In this document: positions 56,858-62,304 of the stretch, in pieces
Layout: the number at the start of each line of letters is the position of its first letter
Numbering within the stretch: position 1 is the first letter of the stretch
From: Spirochaetota bacterium
GTDB lineage: Bacteria > Spirochaetota > UBA4802 > JAGODF01
Length of the DNA: 64,000 nucleotides
Assembly (NCBI GenBank): GCA_029974015.1
Contig: JARKUF010000002.1
Location: 1-64,000 of the forward strand
Direction of reading: 5' to 3'
Program-made: the position numbers and the translations under genes
Notes under the pieces: model-generated
Database searches by the model: none
What the model was told of the DNA's origin: nothing
Seen by the model: only the letters and a program-made list of their open reading frames with translations

Positions 56858-56974
56858 ATATATACCCTCGCTCTGGCACTGCCTGTCGCGGTGAAAAAAT
56901 CCTTGTCAATGCCGTCCTATCTCGATATAATCCCCCGGACTCATAGTGCAAATAACCGATTTCCGGGAGTTCCC

Positions 56975-58075
56975 ATGAGCACAGTGTATTTTACCGATCT
57001 TCGGACAGGCAGCAGGGGCAATATCGCTTCCAAGATCCGGCGCCTCTTCGTGAGGGGGGGCTTTGAAAACATCATCCAGAAAAACGATCTGGTGGCGGTG
57101 AAAACCCATTTCGGGGAATACGGAAACATCGCCTTTATACCGCCCCCCATCATCCGCGTCTTTGCCGATATCGTCCAGGAACAAGGCGCCAAACCCTTCG
57201 TTACCGACTCCAATACCCTCTATCGGGGTAGCCGGAGCAATGCTGTTGACCATCTCCGCAATGCCGGCATGAACGGTTTTGTTACGGAAAGCATCGGCTG
57301 CCCCGTCATCATTGCCGACGGGCTCCGGGGAAATGATTATGCTGTCATTCCCTTCAATGGAAAGCATTATCGCGAATTGAAAATATCCTCGGCCATCCAC
57401 GATGCCCATGCCGTCATCATGGTGAGCCATGTGAAGGGGCACGAGCTCTATGGTTTCGGCGGCGCCCTGAAAAATATTGCCATGGGATGCGTGCCCCCCT
57501 CAGGGAAGCAGACCATCCATTCGGAGTTCAAACCGCGAGTGCGGGAAGATGACTGCCTTTCCTGTGGAAACTGCATAAAAAAATGCCCGGTGAACGCTAT
57601 CGCATACAACAACGCCAGGAAAGCCTTTATTGATCAGGATGTCTGCATCGGCTGCGGGGAGTGCGTGGTGGTTTGCCCTTATGGCGCCATTCCCGTCGTC
57701 TGGAAAACCGACTCGAAGCCCCTCCATGAGCGGACGGCGGAATACGTGAAGGGCATCCTCGGCGCGAAGCCGGGGAAATGGATATTTTTTAATTTTCTGA
57801 TGAACATCTCCCCGGACTGCGATTGCTTCCCATGGAACGACACCCCTGTGGTGCCCAATCTCGGCATCGCGGCGTCCCTGGACCCTCTGGCCCTGGACAG
57901 GGCCTCGACTGACCTGGTGAACCGGGCGGAGATACTACCCGGGTCAAAGATATTCGAAGGGCCGGACGACAGGGACGCCATCACCAGAATAGGAGGGCCG
58001 GGATGGGATTATCTGTTCGACGCCTGCGAGGCCCTGGAAGTCGGGGAAAAGGGCTACGAACTTGTGGAAATATGA
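56975..58075 (+). CDS. DUF362 protein with two [4Fe-4S] clusters
   Basis: A 366-residue protein. The N-terminal DUF362 domain (about 1-185) has NDLVAVKTHFGEYGN and VMVSHVKGHELYGFGGALKN-type sequence. Then come two ferredoxin motifs (CLSCGNCIKKCP and CIGCGECVVVCP, about 193-235) and a C-terminal completion of the DUF362 fold. Such proteins are presumed redox enzymes or electron carriers; the reaction is unknown. ATG at 56975 after GGGAG is preferred to the track start, which adds 28 residues not resembling the family. Confidence 0.82.
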   Translation: MSTVYFTDLRTGSRGNIASKIRRLFVRGGFENIIQKNDLVAVKTHFGEYGNIAFIPPPIIRVFADIVQEQGAKPFVTDSNTLYRGSRSNAVDHLRNAGMNGFVTESIGCPVIIADGLRGNDYAVIPFNGKHYRELKISSAIHDAHAVIMVSHVKGHELYGFGGALKNIAMGCVPPSGKQTIHSEFKPRVREDDCLSCGNCIKKCPVNAIAYNNARKAFIDQDVCIGCGECVVVCPYGAIPVVWKTDSKPLHERTAEYVKGILGAKPGKWIFFNFLMNISPDCDCFPWNDTPVVPNLGIAASLDPLALDRASTDLVNRAEILPGSKIFEGPDDRDAITRIGGPGWDYLFDACEALEVGEKGYELVEI

Positions 58076-58088
58076 TTGCATTTTTAGA

Positions 58089-58116
58089 TTGACATGGCGG
58101 TTTTATGCAATATCTT
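58089..58116 (+). promoter_or_regulatory. Sigma-70-like promoter of the CheY-like gene
   Basis: A perfect TTGACA at 58089-58094, a 16-base spacer and TATCTT at 58111-58116, about 35 bases before the ATG at 58150. Confidence 0.6.
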
Positions 58117-58149: not shown

Positions 58150-58590
58150 ATGAAAAGTTCCCATGATTTTCCCTCGATTAACCCCAAAACGCCGGACGGC
58201 CTGAAGCCCAGCGGAAAACCGTACAATATACTCGTGGTTGAGGACAAAGACTTCCATAGGAAGCAGATAATCCAGGTCCTGGAGTCGGAAGGATACAAAA
58301 TACTCGCCGCTGTAGGAAACGGACAGGAAGCCCTGAAGTTTTACCAGAACAACAAAGCCGATGTCGACCTCATCACCTGCGATCTTGACATGCCTGTCAT
58401 GGACGGGTACTCATTTCTTTACGAATTGCAAAATCTCGGATTGAAACCGAGAATCGTGTTCATAAGTGAAGAGACGACCAAGGGAGTGGTGGAGGACCTG
58501 CTTAAGATGGGCGCCCTGGACTATATTCTCAAACCAATCCAGAGGGGAAGGATCCTGGAGCGCGTAAAACTTGCGCTACAGAGAAAATAA
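58150..58590 (+). CDS. CheY-like single-domain response regulator
   Basis: A 146-residue receiver domain with a 25-residue N-terminal extension. VVEDKDFHRKQI carries the acidic pocket, TCDLDMPVMDG the phosphorylated Asp, FISEE the switch Thr/Ser position, and ILKPIQRGRI the conserved Lys. There is no output domain, so it acts by protein contact. A strong GGAGGAG site and a promoter precede it. The kinase that serves it is not adjacent; the nearest is the 7TM hybrid kinase at 60022. Confidence 0.9.
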   Translation: MKSSHDFPSINPKTPDGLKPSGKPYNILVVEDKDFHRKQIIQVLESEGYKILAAVGNGQEALKFYQNNKADVDLITCDLDMPVMDGYSFLYELQNLGLKPRIVFISEETTKGVVEDLLKMGALDYILKPIQRGRILERVKLALQRK

Positions 58591-58614
58591 TCCTTGGAAT
58601 AACGTCAGGGAATC

Positions 58615-58685
58615 TATAAACAATATAGTGTAGTCTTTAAATTAGCTTTCACCACCAGCCTTCTGCGAGCGGAAAAGGCAGATAG
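58615..58685. repeat. Very degenerate dispersed-repeat candidate, copy M
   Basis: ATCTATAAACAATATAG followed by TTTCACCACCAGCCTTCTGCGAGCGGAAA roughly keeps the spacing and TTC loop of hairpin 1, but the stem is broken. Reported with low confidence. Confidence 0.25.
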
Positions 58686-58764
58686 CGGTAGACTTATTGT
58701 AAATCCGCAATATAATCGCAACGACATGGTATAATGGCGTTAATTAAGGGAGCGTGAACGGCAG

Positions 58765-59850
58765 ATGAGTGACGAAAGCGTACAGCCGGCGGGTGACGAG
58801 GGCCGGGACATCAGCTTTAACATCGCGCTTTTCTATACCGGAGGCGACGCCGACAAGGCGAAGGAGATGGTGGAAGGGAAGTATCGGGACCTCCATATCA
58901 TCACTTCAACGTTTGTTGCATCATCCCTATCCGGGGCGTTCATTCTCTTTTACAATATCAAGCATCTCAAACTGGTCGACTCGTACAACTACATAACACC
59001 GGGGACCCCTCCGAAAAACCTCGATCCCGAAGGGAACTGGTGGGATTTTGAAAAAAGGCTCGTCTTGCTCGCCCGTTCCGGCGAACACGACGAAATCTTA
59101 GGCAAGACCCTCAGGGACGGTTTTCTCAGGGCCTTCTCCCTGACATTCATCACCGATCTGAACAAATTCCTTGAGAACGACGACGACATTTCCCTTAACC
59201 GCCTCATCCAGAAGGTGGTCCAGGATTCCCTTGGCCTGCAGCGCCTGGAGATGCGGGTCTTTTCTTTCAATACCACTTCCCTCGAAATGGAATTGAAGGC
59301 CGTTACAACACGAAAACTCGACAAACACGCCCTGGAAACCCAGAAGATGGACGCCGCAGGGCGCGTTCAAACCATTGAGGAAAAGCCCGGGCGCAAAATT
59401 CCAAAGGTAGGGGAAGACGGCGTGAAGCTCATACTGGGCTGCTCGTTTATACTGTCACCTATCAAGGGCAAGGATGTCACGAAGCTTCAGGTGGGGGACC
59501 GTATCCGCATCAATATCGTCGACAAAAGCCCGAGGGCCATCGGAGTTGCAAGGGCCTTCAATGCCTACGACGAGCAGAATGGAAAGTTCCAGCCAGTCAA
59601 TGCGCGCATCAAGCAGGTGGAAAAGCTGGAAGGGAAGGGAGTGGAAGTATACGCCCTCCTGGCCAGAGGGATACTCGCCCGCATTGTCGAGGAAGAGGAC
59701 AATATAAAAGTCGCCATGGACCCCAACTACGTGTGGCAGGGGGAAGAGGATGTGCAAACGAAGGCCAACATGGCGGGCCTTCTGATTGTGCTCCTCATCA
59801 TCGCCATCTGCACCGCCGTCGTCATAGCCGTCATAAAGCTCCTTTCTTAA
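58765..59850 (+). CDS. Tail-anchored protein of unknown function
   Basis: A 361-residue protein I do not recognise. There is no signal peptide, and one hydrophobic segment lies at the very C-terminus (MAGLLIVLLIIAICTAVVIAVIKLL), so most of it should face the cytoplasm. The N-terminal part begins DISFNIALFYTGGDADKAKEMVEGKYRD and includes a helix-rich region (RAFSLTFITDLNKFL). The central part is strand-rich with KLQVGDRIRINIVD, like a small barrel. It lies between a CheY-like regulator and a hybrid kinase, all in the same direction. A role in signalling or in membrane regulation is only a guess. Confidence 0.65.
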   Translation: MSDESVQPAGDEGRDISFNIALFYTGGDADKAKEMVEGKYRDLHIITSTFVASSLSGAFILFYNIKHLKLVDSYNYITPGTPPKNLDPEGNWWDFEKRLVLLARSGEHDEILGKTLRDGFLRAFSLTFITDLNKFLENDDDISLNRLIQKVVQDSLGLQRLEMRVFSFNTTSLEMELKAVTTRKLDKHALETQKMDAAGRVQTIEEKPGRKIPKVGEDGVKLILGCSFILSPIKGKDVTKLQVGDRIRINIVDKSPRAIGVARAFNAYDEQNGKFQPVNARIKQVEKLEGKGVEVYALLARGILARIVEEEDNIKVAMDPNYVWQGEEDVQTKANMAGLLIVLLIIAICTAVVIAVIKLLS

Positions 59851-60021
59851 TTTCCCGTTCCGGAATTCCGCCATCATTGACGGCGAGGGATTACTCTCCC
59901 GTCCCGCCTGTCCCGCACCGGACCGGGATTAATTATGTGCCGCGGGAGAAATTTCGCTTGTAATCATATGGCGGGACGTTATGGTGCAAAAAGCGTTGTA
60001 AAGTATGGCACGATACTTCAA

Positions 60022-62304
60022 ATGGATCACCTGATTGCACTCCCTTCGGCGGGGTCCATAGCCGTGGCGGCCATCGCCCTTTTCCTCGCCGTCACCCAGG
60101 GATTATTTGCCCTTCGCAGGCCAAGGTATGGCTGGACAGCCTGGGGAAGCCTAATTTCCTTCTCAACCTTCGGGTATTCCCTTGCCGTGGCGTTCCAATA
60201 TAATAGTGAACGTATAGACCTTGTACAACTCGTGGACCGCATACAGCTTTCCTTTATTCTTCTGCTCATCCACGGATTGTATGGATACACCCTTTCCTTT
60301 TTCGGCATAGCATCAAGAAAAAAACACGCCGTCATCGGATTCATACACCTGGTTTTCCTGGCCTTCATCTGGGGTACCGGCCTCATCGTTTCCAGCGAAT
60401 TGACCTCGAGGAACTTTTTCCTGCTGGGACGCCCCTATGTGGAATCGGAATACGGACCTGCAGGCGCGCTTTTTCTATGCTATATGATAGCCGCGGCCCT
60501 GTACACTTTATTCATCTGGGTGGCCAGATTCAGGGAGAACGCCCGTATAGCCTTCTGGTATATTGCGGGATTCACTGCCTGGTTCCTCATGGCCCTTCAC
60601 GATTTTCTTGCATCCCTGGGGATGCCGGCGCCGCTGTTTATCATGGAGTACGGTTTCCTGAGCTTTTCCATTTTTGTTCTCGCCGTTTCCCTGAGGGTAT
60701 ATGACAATCTTGTTGCCCGTCTCCATAAGCGGGAGGCCGCCCTGGAGGAGGAAATGGAACGTCTTTTTACCACACTCAGTTCTATCGGCGACGGCGTGGT
60801 GGCCGTGGACCAGAACGAAAGGATATCCCTCATGAATCCCGTGGCGGAGGAACTCACGGGATGGAAAGAACACTCGGTCCGGGGTACGCCGGTCCAGGAG
60901 ATACTGCTGCTTATTGACGCTTCTTCACGTCTCCCCGTTGAGGATTTCATAAAGAAGGCCGGAAAAACCGGGGTTCCGGTCCATCGGAAAAAAACTACGG
61001 TGCTTATCGCCAGGGACGGGACGGAAAGGATCATTGCCGACAGCTGCGCTCCCATGCACGACCGAGAAGGGAAAATCATCGGTTTTGTGGTCGTCTTCAG
61101 GGACATCACCGACAGAATCAAAACGGAGGAGGTGCTCGCAAAGGCGAGAAACAGCGAGTCCCTGGCCATCCTTGCCGGAGGCATTGCCCACGATTTCAAC
61201 AACATTCTAACGAGCATAGTGGGTAACGTATCCCTGGCATGCCTCAACCTCGATCCCAATGACCATACCTACAAGCTTCTTTCCGACGCGAAAAAAGCAT
61301 CTTTCAGCGCAAGGGACTTGACACGCCAGCTTTTGGCCTTCTCCCGTGGGGGCGCTCCGGTGAAACGCACCGCTACCCTTGTTGAACTAATCCGCGATAC
61401 CGTGGAGTTCGCCCTGAGCGGTTCCAGGGTGAAGTGCGTATTCCACCTTCCCGGCGATCTCTGGGCCGCCGACGTCGACCAGGGGCAGATCAGCCAGGTC
61501 CTGAACAATATCGTCATCAACGCCGATCAGGCATTGGACGGCGGGGGGGTGATTGAAGTGAGGGCCGAAAATCTCCACGTCTTCCGGGACCGTATCATCA
61601 CGGGCATGGAAGAACCTCAACACATGCCGCCGGGAAAATATGTGAAGATAAGCGTGAGAGACCGTGGTTCCGGCATTCCCGAAGAGCACCAGAAAAGGAT
61701 ATTTGAACCATACTTTACCACGAAACAGCGCGGCATGGGACTTGGCCTGGCCACGGTGTATTCTATTGTAAAAAAACATGAAGGATATATTCAACTGGAA
61801 TCGAAACCCGGGGCAGGGACGACTTTCAGCTTCTACCTGCCCGCTGCCGAGGGAAATCCACAATTGCAGGATGCCGATGAGGGGGGAATATTTGGCAAGG
61901 GCAAGATACTCATCGTCGACGAAGAAGAGGACGTCGCCCGGGTTTCTCTGCGGCTCGTGGCAGGGCTCGGATACGATGCAGATTCCGCCCTGAGCATCGA
62001 CCTGGCCGTGGACAAGTACAACTATGCCATGGCCCAGGGGGCGCCATTCGACGTGGTAATAGTTGACCTCACCATGTCCGGTACGGACGGGGCCAGGGAA
62101 TGCCTCGCCCGATTGAAGAAAATCGACGATAATGTTAAGGCCGTGGTGTCGAGCGGCTACAGCAATGACCACGTCATCATGGAGTACTGGAATTTCGGGT
62201 TCTCCGCGGCCCTGCGTAAACCCTACAGCCTGGAGGACCTGGGAAGGGCCATTCGAGAGACCATTGCCGGACCCATTCGCGGAAAACCCTTGTCTGAAAA
62301 GTGA
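60022..62304 (+). CDS. 7TM-PAS hybrid sensor histidine kinase
   Basis: A protein of about 760 residues. Seven hydrophobic segments (about 10-225) form a 7TM sensor, followed by a PAS domain (FTTLSSIGDGVVAVDQNERI, about 250-365), the phosphorylation site LAGGIAHDFNN, an ATPase domain (NNIVINADQAL; GSGIPEEHQKRIFEPYFTTK; GMGLGLATVYSI) and a C-terminal receiver (KILIVDEEEDV, VVIVDLTMSGTDG, RKPYS). I prefer ATG at 60022 because the preceding 29 codons are polar and precede the first helix; its ribosome site is weak. The catalytic half resembles the kinase at 17222, suggesting a common origin. Confidence 0.88.
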   Translation: MDHLIALPSAGSIAVAAIALFLAVTQGLFALRRPRYGWTAWGSLISFSTFGYSLAVAFQYNSERIDLVQLVDRIQLSFILLLIHGLYGYTLSFFGIASRKKHAVIGFIHLVFLAFIWGTGLIVSSELTSRNFFLLGRPYVESEYGPAGALFLCYMIAAALYTLFIWVARFRENARIAFWYIAGFTAWFLMALHDFLASLGMPAPLFIMEYGFLSFSIFVLAVSLRVYDNLVARLHKREAALEEEMERLFTTLSSIGDGVVAVDQNERISLMNPVAEELTGWKEHSVRGTPVQEILLLIDASSRLPVEDFIKKAGKTGVPVHRKKTTVLIARDGTERIIADSCAPMHDREGKIIGFVVVFRDITDRIKTEEVLAKARNSESLAILAGGIAHDFNNILTSIVGNVSLACLNLDPNDHTYKLLSDAKKASFSARDLTRQLLAFSRGGAPVKRTATLVELIRDTVEFALSGSRVKCVFHLPGDLWAADVDQGQISQVLNNIVINADQALDGGGVIEVRAENLHVFRDRIITGMEEPQHMPPGKYVKISVRDRGSGIPEEHQKRIFEPYFTTKQRGMGLGLATVYSIVKKHEGYIQLESKPGAGTTFSFYLPAAEGNPQLQDADEGGIFGKGKILIVDEEEDVARVSLRLVAGLGYDADSALSIDLAVDKYNYAMAQGAPFDVVIVDLTMSGTDGARECLARLKKIDDNVKAVVSSGYSNDHVIMEYWNFGFSAALRKPYSLEDLGRAIRETIAGPIRGKPLSEK

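Follow-up and report, generated by a model that had tools for sequence, protein, structure and literature searches.

Within a stretch of 64,000 nucleotides (positions 1 to 64,000 of contig JARKUF010000002.1, GenBank acc. no. GCA_029974015.1) from a Spirochaetota bacterium, hereafter called the window, a gene for a protein of 361 amino acids lies between the genes for a stand-alone receiver and a hybrid sensor kinase. This arrangement raises the question of whether these genes form a signalling module, as a first-pass annotation had considered conceivable, and what the 361-aa protein, to which no family had been assigned, might do.

Organization of the locus

All three genes are located on the forward strand, and ORFs as well as detected domains agreed with the earlier description of their order, direction, and positions. 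The gene of the receiver, a member of the spirochaetal CheY family (58150..58590, 146 aa, receiver domain with 92 bits), is followed by that of the 361-aa protein (58765..59850) and by the hybrid kinase gene (59935..62304, 789 aa). Pfam revealed PAS, HATPase, and receiver domains in the kinase and a HisKA match of 26.3 bits, marginally below the cut-off of 26.9, and seven hydrophobic segments were recognized by eye ahead of the PAS domain. Promoter-like sites, called by consensus match only, were identified on the forward strand upstream of the receiver (58089..58116) and within the 174 bp between receiver and anchored gene (58689..58716), and no terminator-like site was detected on the same strand in this gap. 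A DUF362 ferredoxin-type gene is located upstream of the receiver (56891–58075); among the 34 neighbourhoods, nine display such a gene ahead of the anchored gene at a distance of at most two genes.

Gene neighbourhood across the order

For comparison of gene order, genes of the relatives were called with a simple ORF picker, and many of the relative genomes are incomplete. The receiver was found directly upstream of and co-directional with the anchored gene in 30 of 33 relatives of the window's order (31/34 including the window), with a gap of 1–140 bp, mostly below 100 bp, in the relatives. At one locus (L046), the receiver was missed by the ORF caller, and a profile search placed it just upstream of the anchored gene. 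This adjacency represents the most conserved link of the anchored gene. Both genes are separate in family f6 (L067, L070, and G127), where the receiver of the split pair lies near flagellar genes in two of the three genomes, and neither of them was seen in a genome of the same genus (G216, 76% complete). The f6 receivers (L229, 6666–7103; L230, 11905–12348; L231, 8229–8672) are located beside hisF with the partner absent there, and the one of L230 has a fliM-like ORF at a distance of three genes and a flagellin nearby.

Downstream of the anchored gene and on the opposite strand, hisF was found in 28 relatives (28/34 neighbourhoods), its family identity being established on one of the 28, and a prenyl synthase gene lies within three genes of the anchored gene in 20 of the 34 neighbourhoods. 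Since the hisF linkage is nearly as conserved as that of the receiver and no functional tie is expected for it, the adjacency may in part be due to gene order changing slowly. The distances of receiver and anchored protein correlate after control by sigma-28 (partial r 0.45) or prenyl synthase (partial r 0.68), which is supportive but weak as an argument for pairing. Based on gene order, receiver and tail-anchored protein are well supported as a conserved two-gene pair of one spirochaete order.

The hybrid kinase was found downstream of the anchored gene in the window only, i.e., in none of the 33 relatives, including one with 62% identity. Because hisF lies there in 28 relatives, we consider the kinase to be outside the conserved unit. 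It fills the usual place of hisF, which suggests an insertion or replacement in the lineage of the window. Thus, the proposed module is supported in part: receiver and anchored protein stay together in most relatives of this order, and the anchored protein may be an effector on which the receiver acts, but the kinase does not belong to the pair.

The receiver and its relation to chemotaxis CheY

The window receiver harbors the residues expected of a CheY-type protein, namely the acidic pair E31/D32, the phospho-acceptor D78, S106, and K128. Its N-terminal extension of residues 1–26 (MKSSHDFPSINPKTPDGLKPSGKPYN, 58150..58227 on the forward strand) displays the consensus DFP.(L/I)N.K.PDG.KP.G.PY, and the same extension opens the CheY encoded in cheA-cheW-cheX-cheY operons of other spirochaetes. 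In Borrelia burgdorferi, the genes of the operon cheA2-cheW3-cheX-cheY3 are required for chemotaxis, and CheY3 is described as its key regulator (PMC10703414 and references therein). Judged from its sequence, the receiver is either a descendant of chemotaxis CheY or its sister.

The order receivers grouped together with two Leptospira-like receivers in one clade (support 100). Among 35 order receivers, the acceptor position is occupied by D in 19, T in nine, N in three, E in three, and A in one, so that Asp is lost in 16, while it is kept in 13 of 13 CheYs tested from che operons. The Leptospira-like receivers of this clade (L176, 5897–6304; L177, 5518–5934) carry Glu at the acceptor position and adjoin a gene resembling leuB; these genomes (family f11) possess one member each of the receiver and the anchored protein family, which are not adjacent.

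In the window's own genome, only one receiver of this type passed a threshold of 1e-28. A cheA-cheW-cheX-cheY operon was not found in this genome, and the window receiver adjoins the anchored gene instead. The cheA genes of this genome are found in two clusters elsewhere, of which one, cheW-cheA-cheB-cheY, contains a generic CheY of 119 aa. CheX was not linked to a cheA gene at any of the CheX loci read in order genomes, that of the own genome included. There, it follows a 379-aa ORF whose product has a hydrophobic segment in its N-terminal part (L203; G000:C23, around 106373–106645), an arrangement found again in most order genomes.

Features of the tail-anchored protein

The 361-aa ORF is coding, with a protein identity of 62% to one relative. 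The deduced protein consists of a body of about 330-odd residues followed by one C-terminal helix, and the claim of a single C-terminal membrane anchor was confirmed: residues 339–357 (59779..59835, forward strand) form the only strong hydrophobic segment, with a hydropathy of 3.48 and ending four residues short of the C-terminus, and one further, weak hydrophobic window was seen near residue 44. In 71 of 71 family members examined, the strongest hydrophobic window ends 0–6 residues from the C-terminus. With one predicted transmembrane helix at this end, the protein can be described as a putative tail-anchored membrane protein.

The most conserved domain comprises residues 221–319 (59425..59721, forward strand) with the motif series ILSPIKGK..GDRI..AFNAY..GI..EEE.NIKV and is, according to a low-confidence model, probably beta-rich. 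Prediction of the whole protein with two sequences as input was poor (pLDDT 41) apart from the C-terminal helix, which was predicted confidently (pLDDT about 80), and a likewise poor 115-residue model of residues 211–325 from one sequence, covering the part described as barrel-like at first pass, showed mostly strands (pLDDT 47). No credible match to a solved structure was obtained for the anchored protein, and a PilZ-like reading of its middle domain found no support. Near the N-terminus, residues 16–40 (58810..58884, forward strand) with two predicted helices and the motif NIALFYTGGDADKAKEMV weakly resemble a UBA domain. The window protein itself gave no significant UBA profile match, and a weak match to UBA_8 (E 0.0077 at best) was detected only in sister subfamily C, in two of 10 members.

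Family and subfamilies of the anchored protein

NCBIfam model NF047678 (LIC10486_fam) matched residues 30–356 of the window protein with 30.4 bits (E 2e-7), and in view of the curated cut-off of 500 bits, the protein is judged a relative and not an equivalog of this family. Pfam revealed no match at E up to 1, including DUF4899 (PF16240, gathering score 25 bits), which was matched by 13 of 37 aligned relatives. Hence, the statement that the protein has no family was right for Pfam and the window sequence alone, but not overall, and the remote homology and structure prediction suggested at first pass led to a LIC10486/DUF4899-related family of spirochaetes but to poor models. With profile similarity over its full length and its C-terminal anchor, the window protein can be placed in this superfamily.

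A search revealed relatives in 114 of 393 genomes of the phylum, and all matches above about 130 bits came from the uncultured order to which the window belongs; the nearest named record was the metagenome-assembled genome 'Spirochaetes bacterium' SKW14 (61%). IMG/VR yielded no relatives. We sorted the members by context into subfamilies A to E and others. Subfamily A, the type of the window, was found in one spirochaete order only, B lies beside STAS-like and ATPase ORFs, C is located in the flagellar superoperon, D comprises short, DUF4899-like proteins without the UBA-like N-terminal part, and E comprises proteins of about 480 aa. In the tree, A, B, and C each fell on one side of a branch (support 99, 98, and 100, respectively). 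Profile–profile comparison with hhalign gave probabilities of 99.8 for A to C and 99.9 for A to D, by which A, C, and D appear clearly homologous. A groups with B rather than with C, though the support of 81 is not strong, and a common clade of A and C was rejected (p-AU 0.005).

The window's own genome harbors three family members, namely that of the window (A), one of type B on contig C34, and one of type D, a weak DUF4899 match, on contig C17 (G000:C17). Loci of the B paralogues (L073, 6828–10092; L078, 5060–9056; L079, 4765–9190) display an operon with a HATPase-domain ORF, a DUF4325 STAS-like ORF, an ORF of 155–165 aa, and a further ORF whose product, hydrophobic over an N-terminal stretch, is probably secreted.

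Link to flagellar genes

At 19 loci from 12 other spirochaete families, the flagellar superoperon contains a subfamily C gene flanked by a FlgV-like gene and sigma-28, the latter usually followed by FapA. Nine of these loci were assigned on the basis of profile score and context instead of the tree, and the FlgV-like call denotes a small membrane-protein gene judged by place and build. FlgV itself is a flagellar assembly protein with its locus at the FlhF-FlhG/sigma-28 junction (PMC10802407). All 18 genomes tested possess flhA, and 14 of these carry C-like members.

In the window's order, flhG is followed by the FlgV-like gene and sigma-28 with no family member among them in 25 of 25 readable loci. 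The superoperon of the own genome (L114, G000:C13:18001-38000) reads flhB-flhA-flhF-flhG-(FlgV-like)-sigma28-fapA and, further on, cheR and cheD, again without a family member. The window protein as a displaced flagellar-operon gene was ruled out by the rejected A and C clade, so that the flagellar link joins subfamilies, not orthologues. Homologues with a known function in unrelated contexts had been named as an argument against the module; this applies in part, since relatives do occur in the flagellar superoperon, but these belong to a different subfamily.

Possible functions of the pair

The explanation that we tentatively prefer, and regard as quite possible, is that the anchored protein is the membrane-docked partner of a CheY-derived receiver and that the pair acts on flagella; the orientation of the protein, its binding to the receiver, and the motility output are what we infer here. 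The body of the protein would be cytoplasmic and would bind the receiver at the inner membrane. Phosphorylation would control this binding in receivers that retain the site, while binding would be constitutive in those that have lost it. In this way, the anchored protein could adjust the assembly of flagella or their motor. We consider motility because of two independent hints, the chemotaxis ancestry of the receiver and the flagellar superoperon location of sister subfamily C; against it stands subfamily B, the weakly supported sister of A, which adjoins STAS-like and ATPase genes and not flagellar ones. A more far-reaching version appears rather unlikely as a whole. It holds that in one spirochaete order, a chemotaxis CheY moved out of its operon, came to be dedicated to a tail-anchored protein whose family also has members in flagellar operons, and depended less and less on phosphorylation in this role; the tail-anchored protein would then be a membrane-bound CheY target other than the motor switch protein FliM.

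The same neighbourhood of subfamily B, with its HATPase-domain and DUF4325 STAS-like ORFs in the style of partner switching, might point to a functional pair of another kind, in which receiver and tail-anchored partner would jointly signal at the membrane for an output other than motility. This lesser, though real, possibility is favored by the grouping of A with B and by the separate cheW-cheA-cheB-cheY cluster, which offers a generic CheY for chemotaxis, but the descent of the receiver and the position of subfamily C speak against it. Whether the genes form a functional pair at all is put in doubt by hisF and the prenyl synthase gene, which also stay near the anchored gene, and by the split of the pair in the three f6 genomes; each gene might act alone, with adjacency kept by slow change of gene order. 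We regard this as unlikely, since the receiver is the most conserved neighbour, with short co-directional gaps, distances remain correlated after control, and a single member of either family is also present, at separate loci, in the Leptospira-like f11 genomes.

Proteins of the EF-Ts and NAC types that contain a UBA-like domain bind translation partners. By this precedent, the UBA-like start of the anchored protein, with the UBA_8 match of the sister subfamily, might indicate a factor docked at the membrane that chaperones or handles clients, flagellar or other, and in whose regulation the receiver plays a minor part; as the UBA assignment is one of resemblance, we hold this to be improbable. 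Finally, phosphorylation of the receiver by the hybrid kinase in a three-gene module would agree with the adjacent, co-directional genes and the intact receiver site in the window, but it is largely refuted by the synteny and seems extremely improbable.

Comparison with known systems

Under our preferred reading, that of a membrane-docked partner of the receiver, the pair may represent a hitherto undescribed element in the control of motility. Should the anchored protein indeed be what the receiver acts on, the motor switch would not be the only target of CheY, a second one being located in the membrane. The order, in which the phospho-site was lost repeatedly, would in that case provide a natural series for response regulators turning phosphorylation-independent. 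Apart from that, a single-pass tail-anchored family is spread over many spirochaete families, with a fixed place between the FlgV-like gene and sigma-28 in 12 of them. Open-access literature revealed no functional papers under the names LIC10486 or DUF4899; LIC10486 appears in the antigen arrays of two papers, whereas no mention of DUF4899 was found.

Compared with the LIC10486 family of Leptospira, the window protein shares the tail-anchored build and a match over nearly the full length, but differs in its low score and in its neighbours, which are other than those of the Leptospira-like gene (L077). DUF4899 is matched by relatives, but not by the window protein itself. The window receiver resembles CheY3-type regulators in its receiver domain and N-terminal extension, whereas the order receivers are located outside the che operon, form their own clade, and have in part lost the acceptor Asp. 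With respect to FlgV (BB0268), FlgV-like genes adjoin subfamily C and likewise encode a small membrane protein, but FlgV displays two transmembrane helices and a disordered tail, unlike the anchored protein, and no homology was seen between them.
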